33,533 nucleotides of DNA from a virus: positions 1 to 33,533 of IMG/VR virus record IMGVR_UViG_3300042549_003835; one strand, 5' to 3'. Position numbers and translations under genes: made by a program. The notes beneath the pieces are model-generated. The model searched no databases. It was not told the origin of the DNA and worked only from the letters and a program-made list of their open reading frames with translations. Below, piece by piece: positions 630 to 7,465 of the stretch (position 1 is its first letter; each line of letters begins with the position of its first letter).

Positions 630-897
630 GTTTTTTTATTGGTTTGGGGTTTAAGTTGTTTTGCACTAACCAAGCCTTACGCTCAAAACGATTAATGCAC
701 TTATCCATCATACGCAACCATTGCATTTGGTCAAGCAAAACTTTATAAGTAATGCCACCTGTCGTCTCTGTCATCTCATACTTCCCGTTGGCAGGATTCC
801 ACTGCCATTTCGGGAGTATGTTTCTGAGTTTCTTTTTGAACTTCTTACGCTTGGATAACGCTGACCGCTTAATCTTCGATTTTGCGGAACGCTTCAT
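598..897 (-). CDS. Basic small protein of unknown function
   Basis: 99 residues from the ATG at 897. A longer in-frame extension reaches 1050, but it only shadows the upstream gene in another frame, so I prefer 897. The first 30 residues are extremely basic (MKRSAKSKIKRSALSKRKKF), followed by a W-rich core (PKWQWNPANGKYEMTETTGG) and a second basic tail. It may bind nucleic acid or another acidic partner; this is inference. It overlaps the neighbours by about 30 bases at each end, an unusually tight arrangement repeated at both junctions. No Shine-Dalgarno site is present. Confidence 0.5.
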   Translation of the reverse strand: MKRSAKSKIKRSALSKRKKFKKKLRNILPKWQWNPANGKYEMTETTGGITYKVLLDQMQWLRMMDKCINRFERKAWLVQNNLNPKPIKKHEVAKKPSKR

Positions 898-1216
898 CAA
901 ACGGGAAGTTCTTAGCCTTTTCAAGTTCTTCTGGCGTGGTCGCAAGAGACATTTTGCTAATCTTGGTGACAAGCATATCGTTCTTGGCCTTGAGGTCGTA
1001 GATTTCGGCACGAAGGGCGTGGTTGTTAGCGATGATTTCGCTACCAGCACGGTTCATCATGGCAAGTTCTTCACGAAAGAAGATAGCATCCTCACCTGCA
1101 AGTTCAAGAATCTTCTCAATCTTACGCATACGCAGGTTAGTGCGTTCGACATTGCCGTAATACTTGTCGGTATTCACATTTTTGTGGCCTTTGCCACCGC
1201 AACAGGAGTTTCCCAT
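869..1216 (-). CDS. Coiled-coil protein with Cys-rich N-terminus
   Basis: 115 residues from the ATG at 1216. The frame is open to 1402 but that extension only shadows the histone-like gene, so the start four bases after that gene's stop is preferred. The N-terminus is MGNSCCGGKGHKNVNTDKYY. Residues 30-100 are largely helical and charged, with likely coiled coil (NNHALRAEIYDLKAKNDMLV). No family was recognised. It directly follows the histone-like gene, probably on the same transcript, so a shared role on phage DNA is conceivable but unsupported. Confidence 0.55.
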   Translation of the reverse strand: MGNSCCGGKGHKNVNTDKYYGNVERTNLRMRKIEKILELAGEDAIFFREELAMMNRAGSEIIANNHALRAEIYDLKAKNDMLVTKISKMSLATTPEELEKAKNFPFDEAFRKIED

Positions 1217-1220
1217 GTGA

Positions 1221-1427
1221 TTACGAGTTTCCGAGGATGAATGCGGCGACAGCCGCATCGAGGGTCTTCTTGCCTCCGTTATGCTCCTTGCAGGAGATGA
1301 GAACCTTATTCTCGATATATCGGTCAAGTGCCATAGCGAAGTCAGCCGAAACACGCTTTCCGTGGGTCTTGGCAAACTTTCGAACAGCGGAAGTCTTGAC
1401 ATAGTTAGTCTTTGTGGGGGAGGCCAT
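1221..1427 (-). CDS. Putative histone-fold DNA-binding protein
   Basis: 68 residues, the usual size of an archaeal HMf-type or short bacterial histone. Seen: helix-like 11-21 (KTSAVRKFAKT), a loop with GKRVS (23-27), a long helix 27-49 (SADFAMALDRYIENKVLIS), a second loop GGKKTLD (51-57) and a short third helix (AAVAAFIL). Known: in archaeal histones the first loop has the pattern (A/G)xRVS and the second has GRKT, whose Lys/Arg and Thr contact DNA backbone; both patterns are present here in the right order and spacing. The central helix is somewhat short, as in bacterial histones of the Bdellovibrio type. Inferred: a dimeric DNA-binding or compacting protein. A generic three-helix protein is the alternative. 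A TTGCTT/CATACT promoter lies upstream. Confidence 0.6.
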   Translation of the reverse strand: MASPTKTNYVKTSAVRKFAKTHGKRVSADFAMALDRYIENKVLISCKEHNGGKKTLDAAVAAFILGNS

Positions 1428-1501: not shown

Positions 1502-1840
1502 TTAGTCATTGATGAACTTGGTCAGTTCCGTGCCGAGGCACTCAACATCGTCCTTGAAGTTGCGTAGTTCGGCTTCAAGCAGGTGCAGTTGCTTGACGAC
1601 CTCATCAAGGGAGCGTTCAGCACGGCCAAGGCGGGCTTTGGAGCGTTCAACCTCATCAGCATCCACGCCGTCATCGCTATCGTCCTCAAGGCAAGTCTCG
1701 ACCTCTTCCTTGCACATATCAACCCAGTGCTTGGCATCGTAGACCTCTTCAACCATAGCCGAGAGGTGCTTGGCTTTCTCAGCCATCTTATTAAGGTAAA
1801 AGGACTTATACTTGAGTGCTTCTGTGTTCGTGTTTTTCAT
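1502..1840 (-). CDS. Acidic coiled-coil protein of unknown function
   Basis: 112 residues from the ATG at 1840. An in-frame ATG at 1858 would give 118 residues, but it lies inside the probable -10 box, so 1840 is preferred. Seen: a helical N-terminal half (NKMAEKAKHLSAMVEEVYDA), an acidic loop (EDDSDDGVDADE, about 56-67) and a second helix with heptads (SKARLGRAERSLDEVVKQLH), suggesting an antiparallel coiled-coil hairpin. No family was recognised. It is the first gene of the leftmost transcription unit, after a terminator at about 2030. Confidence 0.6.
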   Translation of the reverse strand: MKNTNTEALKYKSFYLNKMAEKAKHLSAMVEEVYDAKHWVDMCKEEVETCLEDDSDDGVDADEVERSKARLGRAERSLDEVVKQLHLLEAELRNFKDDVECLGTELTKFIND

Positions 1841-1849
1841 AGTCCACTC

Positions 1850-1877
1850 AGTATCCATACTTTTTTAAAAATAGCAA
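1850..1877 (-). promoter_or_regulatory. Promoter for gene 1502-1840
   Basis: Leftward TTGCTA, 16 bases, GATACT, then 9 bases to the ATG at 1840, which predicts a leaderless or nearly leaderless mRNA. It shares a 30-base pattern (CTTGCT, T-run, A-run, then ATACTG) with the promoter at 1466-1493. Confidence 0.5.
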
Positions 1878-1963: not shown

Positions 1964-1992
1964 TTGACAGAAAGCCACAGCCTCAGTATAAT
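1964..1992 (+). promoter_or_regulatory. Perfect consensus sigma70 promoter on the plus strand
   Basis: TTGACA (1964-1969), 17 bases, TATAAT (1987-1992): a full match to the sigma70 consensus in boxes and spacing. No plus-strand coding region follows. The expected transcript starts near 2000 and runs through the hairpin at 2024-2041 into antisense of the genes at 2049-2434. Confidence 0.65.
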
Positions 1993-2048: not shown

Positions 2049-2171
2049 CTACCTCATTTCCTCATCATCAATATCATAATCCTCATCAAACCAAAGACAA
2101 TGGCTTTCATCTTCATAGTCATCTGAGGATGACCACCCAGAATCATTATCTTCATCGTCTGGGTCTATCAT
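2049..2171 (-). CDS. Very acidic 40-residue protein
   Basis: 40 residues from the ATG at 2171, which overlaps the stop of the SWIM gene as ATGA, a classical coupling junction. 19 of 40 residues are Asp or Glu, with no Lys and a single Arg at the C-terminus. It begins MIDPDDEDND and ends DIDDEEMR. It is followed within 10 bases by a terminator, so it is the last gene of the operon. Charge and size recall DNA-mimic or polymerase-binding phage peptides, but there is no sequence evidence for such a role. Confidence 0.55.
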   Translation of the reverse strand: MIDPDDEDNDSGWSSSDDYEDESHCLWFDEDYDIDDEEMR

Positions 2172-2434
2172 AAAGATATATTATTGGCTATCATAAATGC
2201 CTTACAGGCATTTATATGCTTACACTGATAAGGCTTCATCCATAAAAAGTAATCAGCCTGTCTAAACTCCCAATCCTCGCAAGAACACTGATAACGACCA
2301 TCATTCTCAAGAAGGTCTACCAAATGCACGACCTCTGGTCGTGATTCGCTCCACACCAAGAACCTGTGGTTGCAGTCGTAAAACTCTACCTCAAGGCTCT
2401 TGTGTGATAATGATTGGGGCTTTCTTTCCTGCAT
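2168..2434 (-). CDS. SWIM-type zinc-finger protein
   Basis: 88 residues. The C-terminal half carries C50-x-C52-x18-C71-x-H73 (QCSCEDWEF ... YQCKHINACKAF), the CxCxnCxH signature of SWIM zinc fingers, followed by the usual helix. Known: SWIM domains bind DNA or proteins and occur in MULE transposases, SWI2/SNF2 ATPases and plant regulators. Here the domain stands alone after a 45-residue N-terminus. The only reasonable ATG (2434) lies 44 bases inside the upstream gene. The stop overlaps the next ATG. Role in the phage is unknown; nucleic-acid binding is inferred. Confidence 0.65.
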   Translation of the reverse strand: MQERKPQSLSHKSLEVEFYDCNHRFLVWSESRPEVVHLVDLLENDGRYQCSCEDWEFRQADYFLWMKPYQCKHINACKAFMIANNISL

Positions 2435-3787: not shown

Positions 3788-4504
3788 TTATTCCTCAACA
3801 GAACTACGCTTCTTCTTTGGCTTCTTCTTAGTGACCTCAACTGCGTCATCGAGACCAATGCCTCCATCAATTTGCTCATCGGCAACCTTATACCAAGTCA
3901 TTGAGTCTTCTGCTTGCTTCTTGTTATTCTCGATAACCTCCTTGCCATCCACGAAGTCCCAGAGGGTTGGGAGGCGAGTGCGGCCAGACTCAGCGGGAAA
4001 CCACGCTTCAGAGTAAGCCCAATTCTGAACATCCTTGGCTTCGAAAACATCAGACTTCATTAGCAATTGAATTTCGTCAAATGTAGCACCAATATCAACG
4101 GCCAACTTGTCCATTGGAATCTTGTGCTTCTCTACGAGTTCACGAACATACTCGCTCATGCGGAACGCAAGGTGCGTTCCCTTGGCTCTATTAATACGGA
4201 CAGTGATGACCATTGCCTCAACATCAGAAATGTCGAGGACGGCACATGGAACTCTTCCGTGATACTTTGAACGAAGGCTCGGAGAAAGGCGACTGAGCGT
4301 CCAGCGATGGAAGCCGTCTATGATGACATTGTTCTTATTAATTAAAATTGGCTGAATCCATCCTGTGAGAAGAATTGAACGCTCAATGAGGTTCATCTCT
4401 GCATTCATAACCCTGTTCGGGTTATAATGGTTAGCCACAAGTTGGTCGCACTCAATCCATTGAATGTTCTCTACTGGCTCAAGTTTGTTTGGTTCATTTG
4501 TCAT
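3788..4504 (-). CDS. ParB/Srx-domain protein, IbrB-like
   Basis: 238 residues from the ATG at 4504, which overlaps the PAPS-reductase stop as ATGA; an ATG at 4519 is less likely. Residues 12-75 show the ParB N-terminal (ParB/Srx) fold: the VANHYNPNR segment, LIERSILLTGWIQPILI, then IIDGFHRW, whose GxHR box is the nucleotide-binding and catalytic signature of the family. A helical middle and a Lys-rich tail (KKKPKKKR) follow. Known: ParB-type domains act as CTP switches, nucleases or regulators, and stand-alone versions pair with PAPS-reductase-like proteins (IbrA/IbrB in E. coli). This pairing makes a regulatory or DNA-processing role more likely than plasmid-type partition. Confidence 0.8.
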   Translation of the reverse strand: MTNEPNKLEPVENIQWIECDQLVANHYNPNRVMNAEMNLIERSILLTGWIQPILINKNNVIIDGFHRWTLSRLSPSLRSKYHGRVPCAVLDISDVEAMVITVRINRAKGTHLAFRMSEYVRELVEKHKIPMDKLAVDIGATFDEIQLLMKSDVFEAKDVQNWAYSEAWFPAESGRTRLPTLWDFVDGKEVIENNKKQAEDSMTWYKVADEQIDGGIGLDDAVEVTKKKPKKKRSSVEE

Positions 4505-5589
4505 AAAAGTTTTTTCCATTCTTTCTGGTTTTTGCGGAAAGGCAAGAGTAATTTCCAGATTTGTCCACGGACGAAGTATTTGAGGACATAATCATAAGGG
4601 TAGTTATTCATGCCCTTATTTCGCTCAGATTCGCTTAACTTCCCAATCTGCACAAGACGCTGTAAAGCCAAGTCACGAGACTTGCCCTCCTCGTAATGCT
4701 CACAAATATACCTGTGGATACCATCCCAATTCTTTCCATACTTCTCTTGAACAACAGCATCATTACGAGACTCCGAGTATCTATCGTGAGTCGCTTGGTC
4801 TGGAAATATTTTAAGAAGTTGGTCATAGAACTGCGGGTCGATTTGTCGAAGTTTTTTAAGGTGTCTGATTTTCTCTGGGTGGAGGAATGGAGAGGTTCTT
4901 AGTTCCATTTTGGCATAGAGTTGCCAGTCATAAATTTTGCTATAAGGCAGTTTATTGTCGTAAAGATACTTGAGAACATCACGCTCTTCCCAGTCATACA
5001 TCGGCTTGCAAAGGGTAGCCCACTTGCAACCGTTAGACTTGTTGATGTAATTTTCTACGAGTTTATTTACTGACCCACGCCAGCGGAAACGAGACTCAGA
5101 CGCACGGATGCCATTCATCTGGGCTACCTTCCCCGTAAACCATTGACACTGATATTCTTCGATTTCCTTAGCCCACCATTCTAAGTTCCATATTTCTTCG
5201 GTTGGTCGAATTGCATAGTCTGGAATTGGACGCATCGTTTCTCGATTGCGGAAGTCCCACTGCCTGTATTCGATTGGCTTGTTAAATACATATCGTAAGG
5301 AAGGTTCTGGGATGAGTAGATGATGCATACGCACCCAAGGCATTGAGGCGTAGTGTCTAACGAAATCCACCGTGTTCCCGAGGGTAAATTCATCGTGTCT
5401 GAAGACACAGTTGACAAACTTAAGTCCTCTCTCTTGTGCGACCTCCCAAGCAAGGTGAGCAAGAACTTGCGAGTCCTTTCCACCAGAGAATAAGACGATG
5501 GGGGTGTCGTGAATATCATAAATGTGGTGTATTCTTTGCTTTGCGGCAGTAAGAACATCAATCCCCATTGGGGACTTAAATCGGCTCAT
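4501..5589 (-). CDS. PAPS reductase family protein, IbrA-like
   Basis: 362 residues. The N-terminal PP-loop S35-GGKDS-40 (IVLFSGGKDSQVLAHLAWE) is the ATP-pyrophosphatase signature of the PAPS reductase/N-type ATPase superfamily. Family-like features follow: FRHDEFTLGNTVDFVRHYA, the GIRASESRFR segment (an RxxES motif) and CKPMYDWEERDVLKYL. Known: assimilatory PAPS reductases are about 250 residues, so this longer form fits the IbrA/DndC-like branch seen in phages and DNA-modification loci. It is coupled by ATGA overlaps both to the gene upstream (5586-5897) and to the ParB-like gene downstream. Activity on sulfate, nucleotides or DNA cannot be decided from sequence. Confidence 0.8.
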   Translation of the reverse strand: MSRFKSPMGIDVLTAAKQRIHHIYDIHDTPIVLFSGGKDSQVLAHLAWEVAQERGLKFVNCVFRHDEFTLGNTVDFVRHYASMPWVRMHHLLIPEPSLRYVFNKPIEYRQWDFRNRETMRPIPDYAIRPTEEIWNLEWWAKEIEEYQCQWFTGKVAQMNGIRASESRFRWRGSVNKLVENYINKSNGCKWATLCKPMYDWEERDVLKYLYDNKLPYSKIYDWQLYAKMELRTSPFLHPEKIRHLKKLRQIDPQFYDQLLKIFPDQATHDRYSESRNDAVVQEKYGKNWDGIHRYICEHYEEGKSRDLALQRLVQIGKLSESERNKGMNNYPYDYVLKYFVRGQIWKLLLPFRKNQKEWKKLL

Positions 5590-5897
5590 TTGATTTCGCT
5601 GGCTATGGCTATAAGTTTGTCCGCAAGTTTGCGGAGTGCCGATACATTATACTGAACATACTCGCCGTCAAGTTGAAAAGACAACTCTCCAGCAATATTG
5701 CGAAGCGTTTCAATATTGTCTTTTCTTTTATTAAATCTTTTAATAATGTCTTCTGCCTGTGCGAGAGGAATGGTAACTAATGGCTCTTTGTATTCAAGAC
5801 CGTTAGCCTCCATCTTCCTTATGCGTGTCTTTACTCGGGCAATCTGATGCCTTATAAGCGTTTCCCCATCCGTCTTTGGGGAGTAATTATTTGGCAT
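5586..5897 (-). CDS. Hypothetical helical protein coupled to PAPS reductase gene
   Basis: 103 residues from the ATG at 5897; longer in-frame versions to 5951 shadow the upstream gene. Predominantly helical and charged (LIRHQIARVKTRIRKMEANG; LAQAEDIIKRFNKRKDNIET; SALRKLADKLIAIASEIK). No family was recognised. The stop shares the ATGA junction with the PAPS-reductase start, so the three genes 5897-3788 form a translationally linked set and this one may be a partner of the pair. It overlaps the preceding gene by 11 bases. Confidence 0.6.
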   Translation of the reverse strand: MPNNYSPKTDGETLIRHQIARVKTRIRKMEANGLEYKEPLVTIPLAQAEDIIKRFNKRKDNIETLRNIAGELSFQLDGEYVQYNVSALRKLADKLIAIASEIK

Positions 5898-6123
5898 CTT
5901 TATCCTTATTAAGAACTTCGTCTTGGAGGTATCTGTCGATACGCTCTCCAATGGTTCTGATATATGGATACTTCTTGCGACACAGTTTTATAAAGTCGTA
6001 GAAGCGTGTCAGTTCAGCCTCCTCTTGGAATATGATATGATAAGCAACAACTGGCTTACCAACCCATCCGTGTTCACCGCCTTCGGCAAACTTATCGTCA
6101 TTCATTGGTTCGTGATTATCCAT
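5887..6123 (-). CDS. Hypothetical protein, 78 aa
   Basis: 78 residues from the ATG at 6123, giving an ATGGATAA 8-base overlap with the upstream gene; the frame also extends to 6153. It starts MDNHEPMNDDKFAEGGEHGW and contains a hydrophobic strand (KPVVAYHIIF) and an amphipathic helix with aromatic and basic residues (LTRFYDFIKLCRKKYPYIRT). No domain was recognised. Confidence 0.55.
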   Translation of the reverse strand: MDNHEPMNDDKFAEGGEHGWVGKPVVAYHIIFQEEAELTRFYDFIKLCRKKYPYIRTIGERIDRYLQDEVLNKDKDAK

Positions 6124-6538
6124 ATTTAGAGTATTTACCGATGAAAGAGCCATTGTCCGTTTCGGTCAATAAGGGAAGGTCGAACTTTGCGGCATAGTGC
6201 TGTATGTCTCCACGCTGAATATGCGTCCCACTCTTCTCTGAAGCCCACACAGATGCCTGTCGGGCTGTAAGCCCGAGTTCAAGGCCACGATTGTAGCCTT
6301 CCATAATCCATCCGTATCTTGGAGATGGAGACGAACGGTCAATGCCGTCTGGAAATCTAAGATTGTTTTTTCGAAGAAAGCAACGCATTGCACCTTCCGT
6401 GACTGAGTGCTTTTCCGAAATACCCACAAGCGTCATATGAGGAAACTTCTTCCAGTCCTCATAGATAGCCCGCATTAACTTCCGCCTTGGTTCGTGGCGG
6501 TCTTCTTGTGGTGGTTGTGGTGTTTGTTTGTGGCTCAT
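6116..6538 (-). CDS. Putative HTH DNA-binding protein
   Basis: 140 residues from the ATG at 6538, with a Pro/Gln-rich basic lead (MSHKQTPQPPQEDRHEPRRK). Two candidate helix-turn-helix units are visible: MTLVGISEKHSVTEGAMRCF (about 35-54) and GLTARQASVWASEKSGTHIQ (about 89-108), each with the hydrophobic/turn/polar-helix pattern of such motifs. It could be a transcription factor or a terminase-small-like binder. Position far from the packaging genes favours regulator. The assignment rests on pattern only. Confidence 0.45.
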   Translation of the reverse strand: MSHKQTPQPPQEDRHEPRRKLMRAIYEDWKKFPHMTLVGISEKHSVTEGAMRCFLRKNNLRFPDGIDRSSPSPRYGWIMEGYNRGLELGLTARQASVWASEKSGTHIQRGDIQHYAAKFDLPLLTETDNGSFIGKYSKYG

Positions 6539-6543
6539 TTTTA

Positions 6544-6771
6544 TTACTTACTTTCTTTCTTTTCCTTTTTGCTTTCAGCCTTCATAAAGTCTAACTTTGC
6601 CTCTGCTGACATTTTATGATACTTATTCCACTTTTCAGTGATGACAATCATATTCAGAGTTGTCTTGAAAATATGAAAGAATGCGTAAGCACCAAAGCAA
6701 AAGCAGATTACAAAAACGAACGCCCCCATGTATACGAGGACTGTTGACACTAATGTTATTGCGTCCATCAT
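6544..6771 (-). CDS. Small single-pass membrane protein
   Basis: 75 residues from the ATG at 6771 (a second ATG follows immediately). Residues 5-33 are strongly hydrophobic with aromatic and Cys content (TLVSTVLVYMGAFVFVICFC), one long or two short membrane segments. The remainder is a charged cytoplasmic-type tail ending KESKKEKKESK. No family was recognised. It is separated by a single base from the stop of the gene upstream. Roles from superinfection exclusion to lysis are possible; nothing decides. Confidence 0.55.
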   Translation of the reverse strand: MMDAITLVSTVLVYMGAFVFVICFCFGAYAFFHIFKTTLNMIVITEKWNKYHKMSAEAKLDFMKAESKKEKKESK

Positions 6772-6772
6772 T

Positions 6773-6967
6773 TTAAGACTTAATCTGTTGGGCTAAAGAC
6801 TTCTGCTTGCGGTATGCTTCCCACCGCTTAAGGACTGCGGCACGGCAGACCTCTGAAGGTCTACGCTTGCAGTCTCCTCGGCCAGCCATACCGCCGATGC
6901 GACCAAGGATTTTAGCCGCTTCCTTGATTGCTTGGGTTTTCTCTGTGTTGTGTTGCTCTGAGTTCAT
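6773..6967 (-). CDS. Small basic protein, possible DNA binder
   Basis: 64 residues from the ATG at 6967. An in-frame TTG at 6994 lies inside a TTGACA box and is not preferred. The central part (AAKILGRIGGMAGRGDCKRR) resembles the glycine-rich basic motif of small phage proteins of the LGxxGGxA type, followed by a helix (VCRAAVLKRWEAYRKQK). A TTGACA box lies 21 bases before the ATG, with TTGCATACAT between. Nucleic-acid binding is inferred from charge only. Confidence 0.5.
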   Translation of the reverse strand: MNSEQHNTEKTQAIKEAAKILGRIGGMAGRGDCKRRPSEVCRAAVLKRWEAYRKQKSLAQQIKS

Positions 6968-7000
6968 ATGTATGCAAGGGTTTGGGTTTGTCAACCAGAC

Positions 7001-7465
7001 TCACTTGAGTCTTTTGTTTTTCTTCATTTCACGCTTTTGCATACGCAAAAACGCTTCATACTCCGCCTTGTTTTGTGCGTCAAGATTGATTGCCTCCTGC
7101 TTTCGCATTTCACGGAAAACCGCAGGGACTTTATAGATAGCAAAGCAAGCGAGGCAGATAATGAGCAAGGTAAAACTTCCGCCAATACCGCCAAGCATAC
7201 TGTTTGCAAGCGGGGCAAAAACCATTGCAACAACAATGAAGGGGAGAATATACTTGATGATGAAAAAGAAAGCACCGAGAGTGTTTTCTTCGTCAAGTTC
7301 TGGCAGTTTCCTGTTTCTTTGTGCGTTGATATTGTCCCGCAGGTGAAGGTATTCTACAAGGGTGTAATCCTTGTAGACGGAAGGGATGAGGGTTGAGTTT
7401 TCGGCTTCCGTAATGGAAACTTGAACATTTACCTGTTCATCGAAGTCGGAGGAGTAGTTGCTCAT
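7001..7465 (-). CDS. Two-helix membrane protein, leaderless start
   Basis: 154 residues from the ATG at 7465; the frame extends to 7504 but that part holds the promoter. Soluble acidic N-terminus (1-60), two membrane segments at about 64-88 (AFFFIIKYILPFIVVAMVFA) and 93-113 (GGIGGSFTLLIICLACFAIY), then a basic helical tail (AFLRMQKREMKKNKRLK). No family was recognised. A TTGACT-N16-CATACT promoter ends 7 bases before the ATG. It begins the leftward accessory transcription unit and may act at the host membrane. Confidence 0.6.
   Translation of the reverse strand: MSNYSSDFDEQVNVQVSITEAENSTLIPSVYKDYTLVEYLHLRDNINAQRNRKLPELDEENTLGAFFFIIKYILPFIVVAMVFAPLANSMLGGIGGSFTLLIICLACFAIYKVPAVFREMRKQEAINLDAQNKAEYEAFLRMQKREMKKNKRLK

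Follow-up and report, generated by a model that had tools for sequence, protein, structure and literature searches.

We identified a 68-residue protein, encoded in a virus-derived stretch of DNA, that is likely to be a minimal, stand-alone histone of a tailed phage, predicted to be dimeric and to bind DNA. The whole stretch that was analysed, which we call the window, is a linear fragment of 33,533 bases (IMG/VR record IMGVR_UViG_3300042549_003835, positions 1–33,533). The gene lies on its minus strand, from an ATG at 1427 to a TAA at 1221, and the product (MASPTKTNYVKTSAVRKFAKTHGKRVSADFAMALDRYIENKVLISCKEHNGGKKTLDAAVAAFILGNS) has a pI of 9.9 and a net charge of +7; the plus-strand frame over 1221–1427 is unrelated to it. 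An earlier note on this DNA had placed a 68-residue reading frame at these positions with its strand unstated, and the frame is indeed there. The assignment draws on the open reading frame, its homologues, an AlphaFold2 model, Foldseek and profile searches of the PDB, which document the fold, the charge, the conserved contact residues, a single gene copy, the absence of the histone arginine–aspartate (R-D) clamp and the lack of any extra domain.

The window is, by its gene content, a tailed phage whose host probably lies in the Verrucomicrobiota, because its portal gene resembles phage portal proteins (best matches Verrucomicrobia phage P8625 and an Akkermansia phage) and its putative capsid gene has phage P8625 as its sole match (28% identity, 96% coverage). 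The large genes of the window share the minus strand with the histone gene. Shine-Dalgarno-like sites precede three of the 22 window genes checked, with none at the histone gene, and this scarcity points to a host in which translation mostly starts without such sites.

Iterated searches recovered homologues at 34 or more viral loci beyond the window (at least 34, on uncultured virus contigs) and on one contig outside the viral records, L036, titled Candidatus Aquidulcis, which belongs to a Chloroflexota metagenome-assembled genome (MAG) and is possibly phage DNA that was binned there. A re-scan with 29 family sequences added zero further loci. Each of the 33 records searched (32 viral and the one MAG) holds exactly one copy. 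The 29 distinct proteins align across their whole length, measure 62–70 residues and carry nearly invariant GKR and EHNGGKKT motifs, and every listed member has a pI of 9.6–10.3. The window gene differs from its nearest homologues mostly at third codon positions; compared with locus L001, there are 10, 3 and 34 differences at codon positions 1, 2 and 3, and of the codon changes 23 are synonymous and 14 non-synonymous. The open reading frame is a real, conserved gene and not a chance one, and it belongs to a strongly basic, single-copy family under purifying selection.

The protein lacks a significant match in Pfam or PHROGs. Single-sequence searches with the window protein against Pfam, PHROGs and the PDB gave nothing useful, and the isolate phage and plasmid collections searched held no credible homologue. 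The CBFD_NFYB_HMF-type profile (PF00808), which the earlier note had pointed to, did not reach its gathering threshold: none of the 11 family members scanned has a Pfam histone match, and PF00808 had no match in five records holding relatives. PHROG matches were weak (best E 0.017), differed between members and were not accepted. Among 400 genomes of the MAG contig's phylum the sole match was the MAG itself, apart from a weak 40-residue match (L038) that we rejected on reading its open reading frames. In a viral structure library, two proteins of uncultured Caudovirales phages, A0A6J5MS37 and A0A6J5QYV5 (61–63% identity, E 3e-6 and 2e-5), are by structure and identity members of the window histone's own family; both are labelled "uncharacterized protein", with no histone name in the returned table.

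The AlphaFold2 model built from 29 homologues is confident (pLDDT 90.4, pTM 0.72) and has the short-long-short arrangement of a histone fold, with helices at residues 12–21, 28–47 and 58–65 separated by loops L1 and L2. Helix, GKRVS (residues 23–27), long helix, GGKKTL (51–56) and short helix follow one another as had been read from the letters alone. When the model was searched with Foldseek against 350,542 PDB chains, nearly all of the 48 matches were histone folds or histone-containing complexes (8btg is the clear exception), led by Bdellovibrio HBb (probability 0.99; TM 0.69/0.74) and Leptospira HLp (0.93 and 0.87; TM 0.66/0.79) as the top three, and a shallower, 11-sequence model returned the same leaders. 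None of these Foldseek E-values fell under about 0.4, in part owing to the short chain, and the argument therefore rests on consistency of rank.

Profile comparison, which shares one alignment with the structural evidence, points the same way. Searched against 177,635 distinct PDB sequences, the 29-sequence profile gave three matches at E≤10, all of them α3 histones (HTkC, 9F2C, E 0.0031; HBb, E 0.25 and 0.28). In hhalign against six solved histones it scored 30.2 with a probability of 84% (74.8% when run in standard form), while the best of 200 column-shuffled controls reached 17.5 and 6.6%. The earlier proposal of a histone fold in a tailed phage is thus borne out by a confident predicted fold like that of histones, and the outcome that would have spoken against it, an unrelated three-helix family as the best profile match, did not appear in the PDB, which returned histones only. 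TAL-effector repeats headed the PDB search with an 11-sequence profile; we rejected them as sums over tandem G-G-K repeats, no single stretch of which passed, and they were gone with the 29-sequence profile.

We then aligned the family to HMfB, HBb and HTkC and counted residues over the 29 distinct sequences. Helix α1 (residues 12–21; 1365–1394, minus strand, as are all features of the gene) is basic, with K or R at position 16 in 29/29, K17 in 21/29 and K20 in 22/29. In loop L1 (H-G-K-R-V-S, residues 22–27; 1347–1364), R25 is invariant (29/29) and aligns to R19 of HMfB, the L1 arginine that reaches into the minor groove. Helix α2 (residues 28–47; 1287–1346) is followed by the stretch E-H-N-G-G-K-K-T-L-D (residues 48–57; 1257–1286), which includes loop L2; here E48, H49, N50, G52, K53 and T55 are invariant, K54 is present in 28 of 29, and the family signature is E-H-N-x-G-K-x-T. 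The L1 arginine and the L2 lysine-threonine pair expected of a DNA-binding histone are therefore conserved. The G-R-K-T of HMfB-type L2 loops instead reads G-K-K-T, with K for R in all 29 sequences, and the aspartate of the clamp is absent from the short helix α3 (residues 58–65; 1233–1256), since there is no D at +4 or +5 of T55 (position 59 is A, S or G and position 60 V, L or I). From the L1 serine (S27) to the L2 glycine the family spans 25 residues, compared with 30 in HMfB and 26 in HTkC and HBb. The predicted α3 has 8 residues in the 29-sequence model and 10 in the shallower one, and in all 29 proteins the chain ends no more than nine residues beyond it, with no C-terminal domain.

The HMf-type signature proposed in the earlier note does not hold, since α2 falls five residues short of its length in HMfB and there is no R-D clamp; neither the full-length α2 nor the G-R-K-T...D clamp of nucleosomal HMf-type histones is present, and the likeness is to bacterial and face-to-face (FtF) α3 histones. 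The best structural match is HBb (Bd0055 of Bdellovibrio bacteriovorus; 8FVX, 8CMP and 9F0E), an α3 histone of the "bacterial dimer" type with 31% identity over 54 columns, which also matches by profile and shares a single short histone fold, a shortened α2 and basic residues in α1 and L2. However, HBb has G-R-K-T and a following Asp (the R-D clamp), carries N at the position of the family's invariant L1 arginine, lacks the E-H-N-G-G signature and is encoded on a chromosome, unlike the phage-borne family. HTkC of Thermococcus kodakarensis (9F2C), a face-to-face α3 histone, is the best PDB profile match and shares R-V-S-x-x-F and K-T-L; histones of its type tetramerise via conserved residues of the α2 C-terminus, L2 and α3 that include an R-D pair, whereas the phage family has K in place of the R and no D. 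The second-best structural match, HLp of Leptospira perolatii (9QT0–9QT2), is a DNA-wrapping tetramer with an R55–D62 clamp, again absent from the phage family. The clamp is common to HMf, FtF and HBb histones, and the phage family is set apart by its loss.

Histones in tailed phages, which the earlier note thought would be unusual, had been predicted before. Schwab et al. (2024; PMC11390915), in a survey that started from InterPro histone-fold entries, defined groups of prokaryotic histones that include predicted "phage histones" (e.g., A0A2E7QIQ9), which carry a C-terminal α-helical tetramerisation domain and lack the RxTxxxD motif. The same work describes α3 histones as having an α2 that is 4–5 residues shorter than in nucleosomal histones and an α3 truncated to 3–4 residues. 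Our family has the shortened α2 (25 versus 30 residues), but its modelled α3 has 8 residues; because of this length and the missing tetramerisation domain, it fits no named subgroup. That the survey did not recover it is probably explained by the absence of Pfam histone matches among its members. A possible but unlikely alternative is kinship with the published "phage histones": the family would be a shortened form that has shed their C-terminal tetramerisation helix, and it would form tetramers or bridge DNA by some other route. Both groups come from tailed phages, have an α3-like fold and lack the RxTxxxD motif; yet 0/29 members carry the C-terminal domain that, in the published description, sets those proteins apart. 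We read the family as a separate, stand-alone phage histone family, which probably works like an α3 histone while standing outside every named subgroup.

In the window, the gene sits among small genes without assigned function. An acidic 118-residue protein (1502–1858, minus strand; net charge −13), called coiled-coil in the earlier note, lies upstream and has no homologue that we found beside the histone relatives; a small protein (869–1216, minus strand), starting 4 nt past the histone stop, was likewise not seen beside them, and the direct neighbours in the window were not found next to most relatives. The capsid gene of the window is recognisable in 5 of the 33 records that hold histone relatives, and the capsid protein of a second lineage (L009, L012, L029, L030 and others), seen in the record of L030, is a different one. 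The histone gene is accordingly found alongside two or more unrelated capsid types, in loci whose GC content ranges from 42 to 65%. In the lineage of L009, L012, L029 and L030, genes for recombination endonuclease VII, exonuclease VIII and an O-like replication-initiation protein lie downstream of the histone and form a DNA-metabolism module. No HU/IHF family member and no tyrosine integrase was found in the 33 records, with positive controls in both cases; because the records are mostly fragments, the absence of HU/IHF is weak evidence.

The histone-fold dimer could be aimed at the host, as a takeover factor that forms heterodimers with a nucleoid protein or histone of the host, displaces it or poisons it, or that stops host transcription. 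A small single-copy gene among others of unassigned function, its position beside early replication and recombination genes in one lineage, and the loss of the R-D clamp, which could mean altered self-assembly, are consistent with this reading. We consider it unlikely, however, since a DNA ligand would account for the near-invariant DNA-contact residues and the strong positive charge, and the spread across unrelated capsid types and a wide range of GC content points to a target as generic as DNA. A further reading, which we regard as quite unlikely, is that of a phage chromatin module, in which a clamp-less dimeric histone would coat or bend phage DNA during replication or packaging, with a strongly acidic chaperone or off-switch (net −13 to −27) encoded nearby. 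In 12 of 25 loci, one of the three genes upstream of the histone encodes a strongly acidic protein (net −13 or lower), compared with about 6% of genes overall, a count in which 9 of the 12 loci represent one phage lineage and genes were called crudely. For the suggestion in the earlier note that adjacent coiled-coil genes may be partners, this count is no more than a lead.

Several other features of these loci were observed. A 40-residue, extremely acidic protein (MIDPDDEDNDSGWSSSDDYEDESHCLWFDEDYDIDDEEMR; net −18) is encoded at 2049–2171 (minus strand) and kept in L001 and L002; it could be a DNA mimic or a histone chaperone. At 2168–2434 (minus strand) lies a gene for a small SWIM-zinc-finger-like protein, with homologues near the histone in eight loci (L001, L002, L003, L008, L014, L021, L027 and L036). 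An overlapping gene pair at 3788–5589 (minus strand), kept in L001, L002 and L021, encodes a PAPS-reductase-domain protein and a ParB_N-like protein, a pair that we take to be IbrA/IbrB-like. A perfect sigma-70 promoter (TTGACA-N17-TATAAT, 12/12) occupies the same intergenic place in the three closest phages (window 1964–1992, plus strand; L001 4159–4187 and L002 4196–4224, minus strand) and in no other fetched locus; it is oriented against the neighbouring genes, has a hairpin-like stretch shortly downstream and possibly drives an antisense or small RNA. Short G-rich/C-rich hairpins flank the histone gene on both sides in L009, L012, L013, L016, L023–L025, L028 and L029, where the gene has no Shine-Dalgarno site and is preceded by a pyrimidine-rich leader (CTTTCTGTTCTTTCACATCCGCATATG); a leader of similar kind also stands ahead of the next gene in L013 and L016. 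In L003, a C-5 cytosine methylase gene (5759–7408, plus strand) lies immediately downstream of the histone, and the same stretch also matches a PHROG family named primase.

It is very improbable that the likeness to a histone is superficial, in a three-helix protein with a DNA-binding or structural role whose K-R and G-K-K-T motifs arose by chance: the lack of a curated family match, the weak E-values, the missing clamp residues and the chance hits that one consensus sequence gave in the PDB (to engineered repeat proteins and SPT6, which we rejected as repeat sums or chance) would favour this, but the family profile retrieves only histones from the PDB, two models of different depth have almost exclusively histone folds as neighbours, and column-shuffled controls come nowhere near the real match. 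Against the histone reading itself stand the modest E-values (0.003 for the best PDB sequence match), the lack of a Pfam histone match, the missing clamp and an α3 longer than 3–4 residues.

For the stand-alone phage histone that we favour, we propose that two chains would pair as a handshake homodimer, in which R25 and the L1 and L2 loops would grip the minor groove and backbone while the α1 lysines provide a second contact. Such a dimer may bend or coat DNA without sequence specificity, much like HBb and not as a nucleosome-like stack. Its target would be phage DNA, during replication or in the packaged state, or else the host nucleoid, and it would serve as the phage's own nucleoid protein.

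In the literature that we found, histones in tailed phages are represented by the 2024 structure predictions only, of one C-terminally extended group drawn from InterPro annotations (PMC11390915). A second, stand-alone group extends phage histones to a minimal form of 62–70 residues, now seen in phages with two or more unrelated types of capsid, and yields a residue-level prediction of a histone that lacks the R-D clamp yet keeps the minor-groove arginine. It thus appears that some bacterial viruses encode a tiny histone of their own for bending or packaging DNA, and these small proteins offer a direct test of whether phages organise their own DNA with histones.
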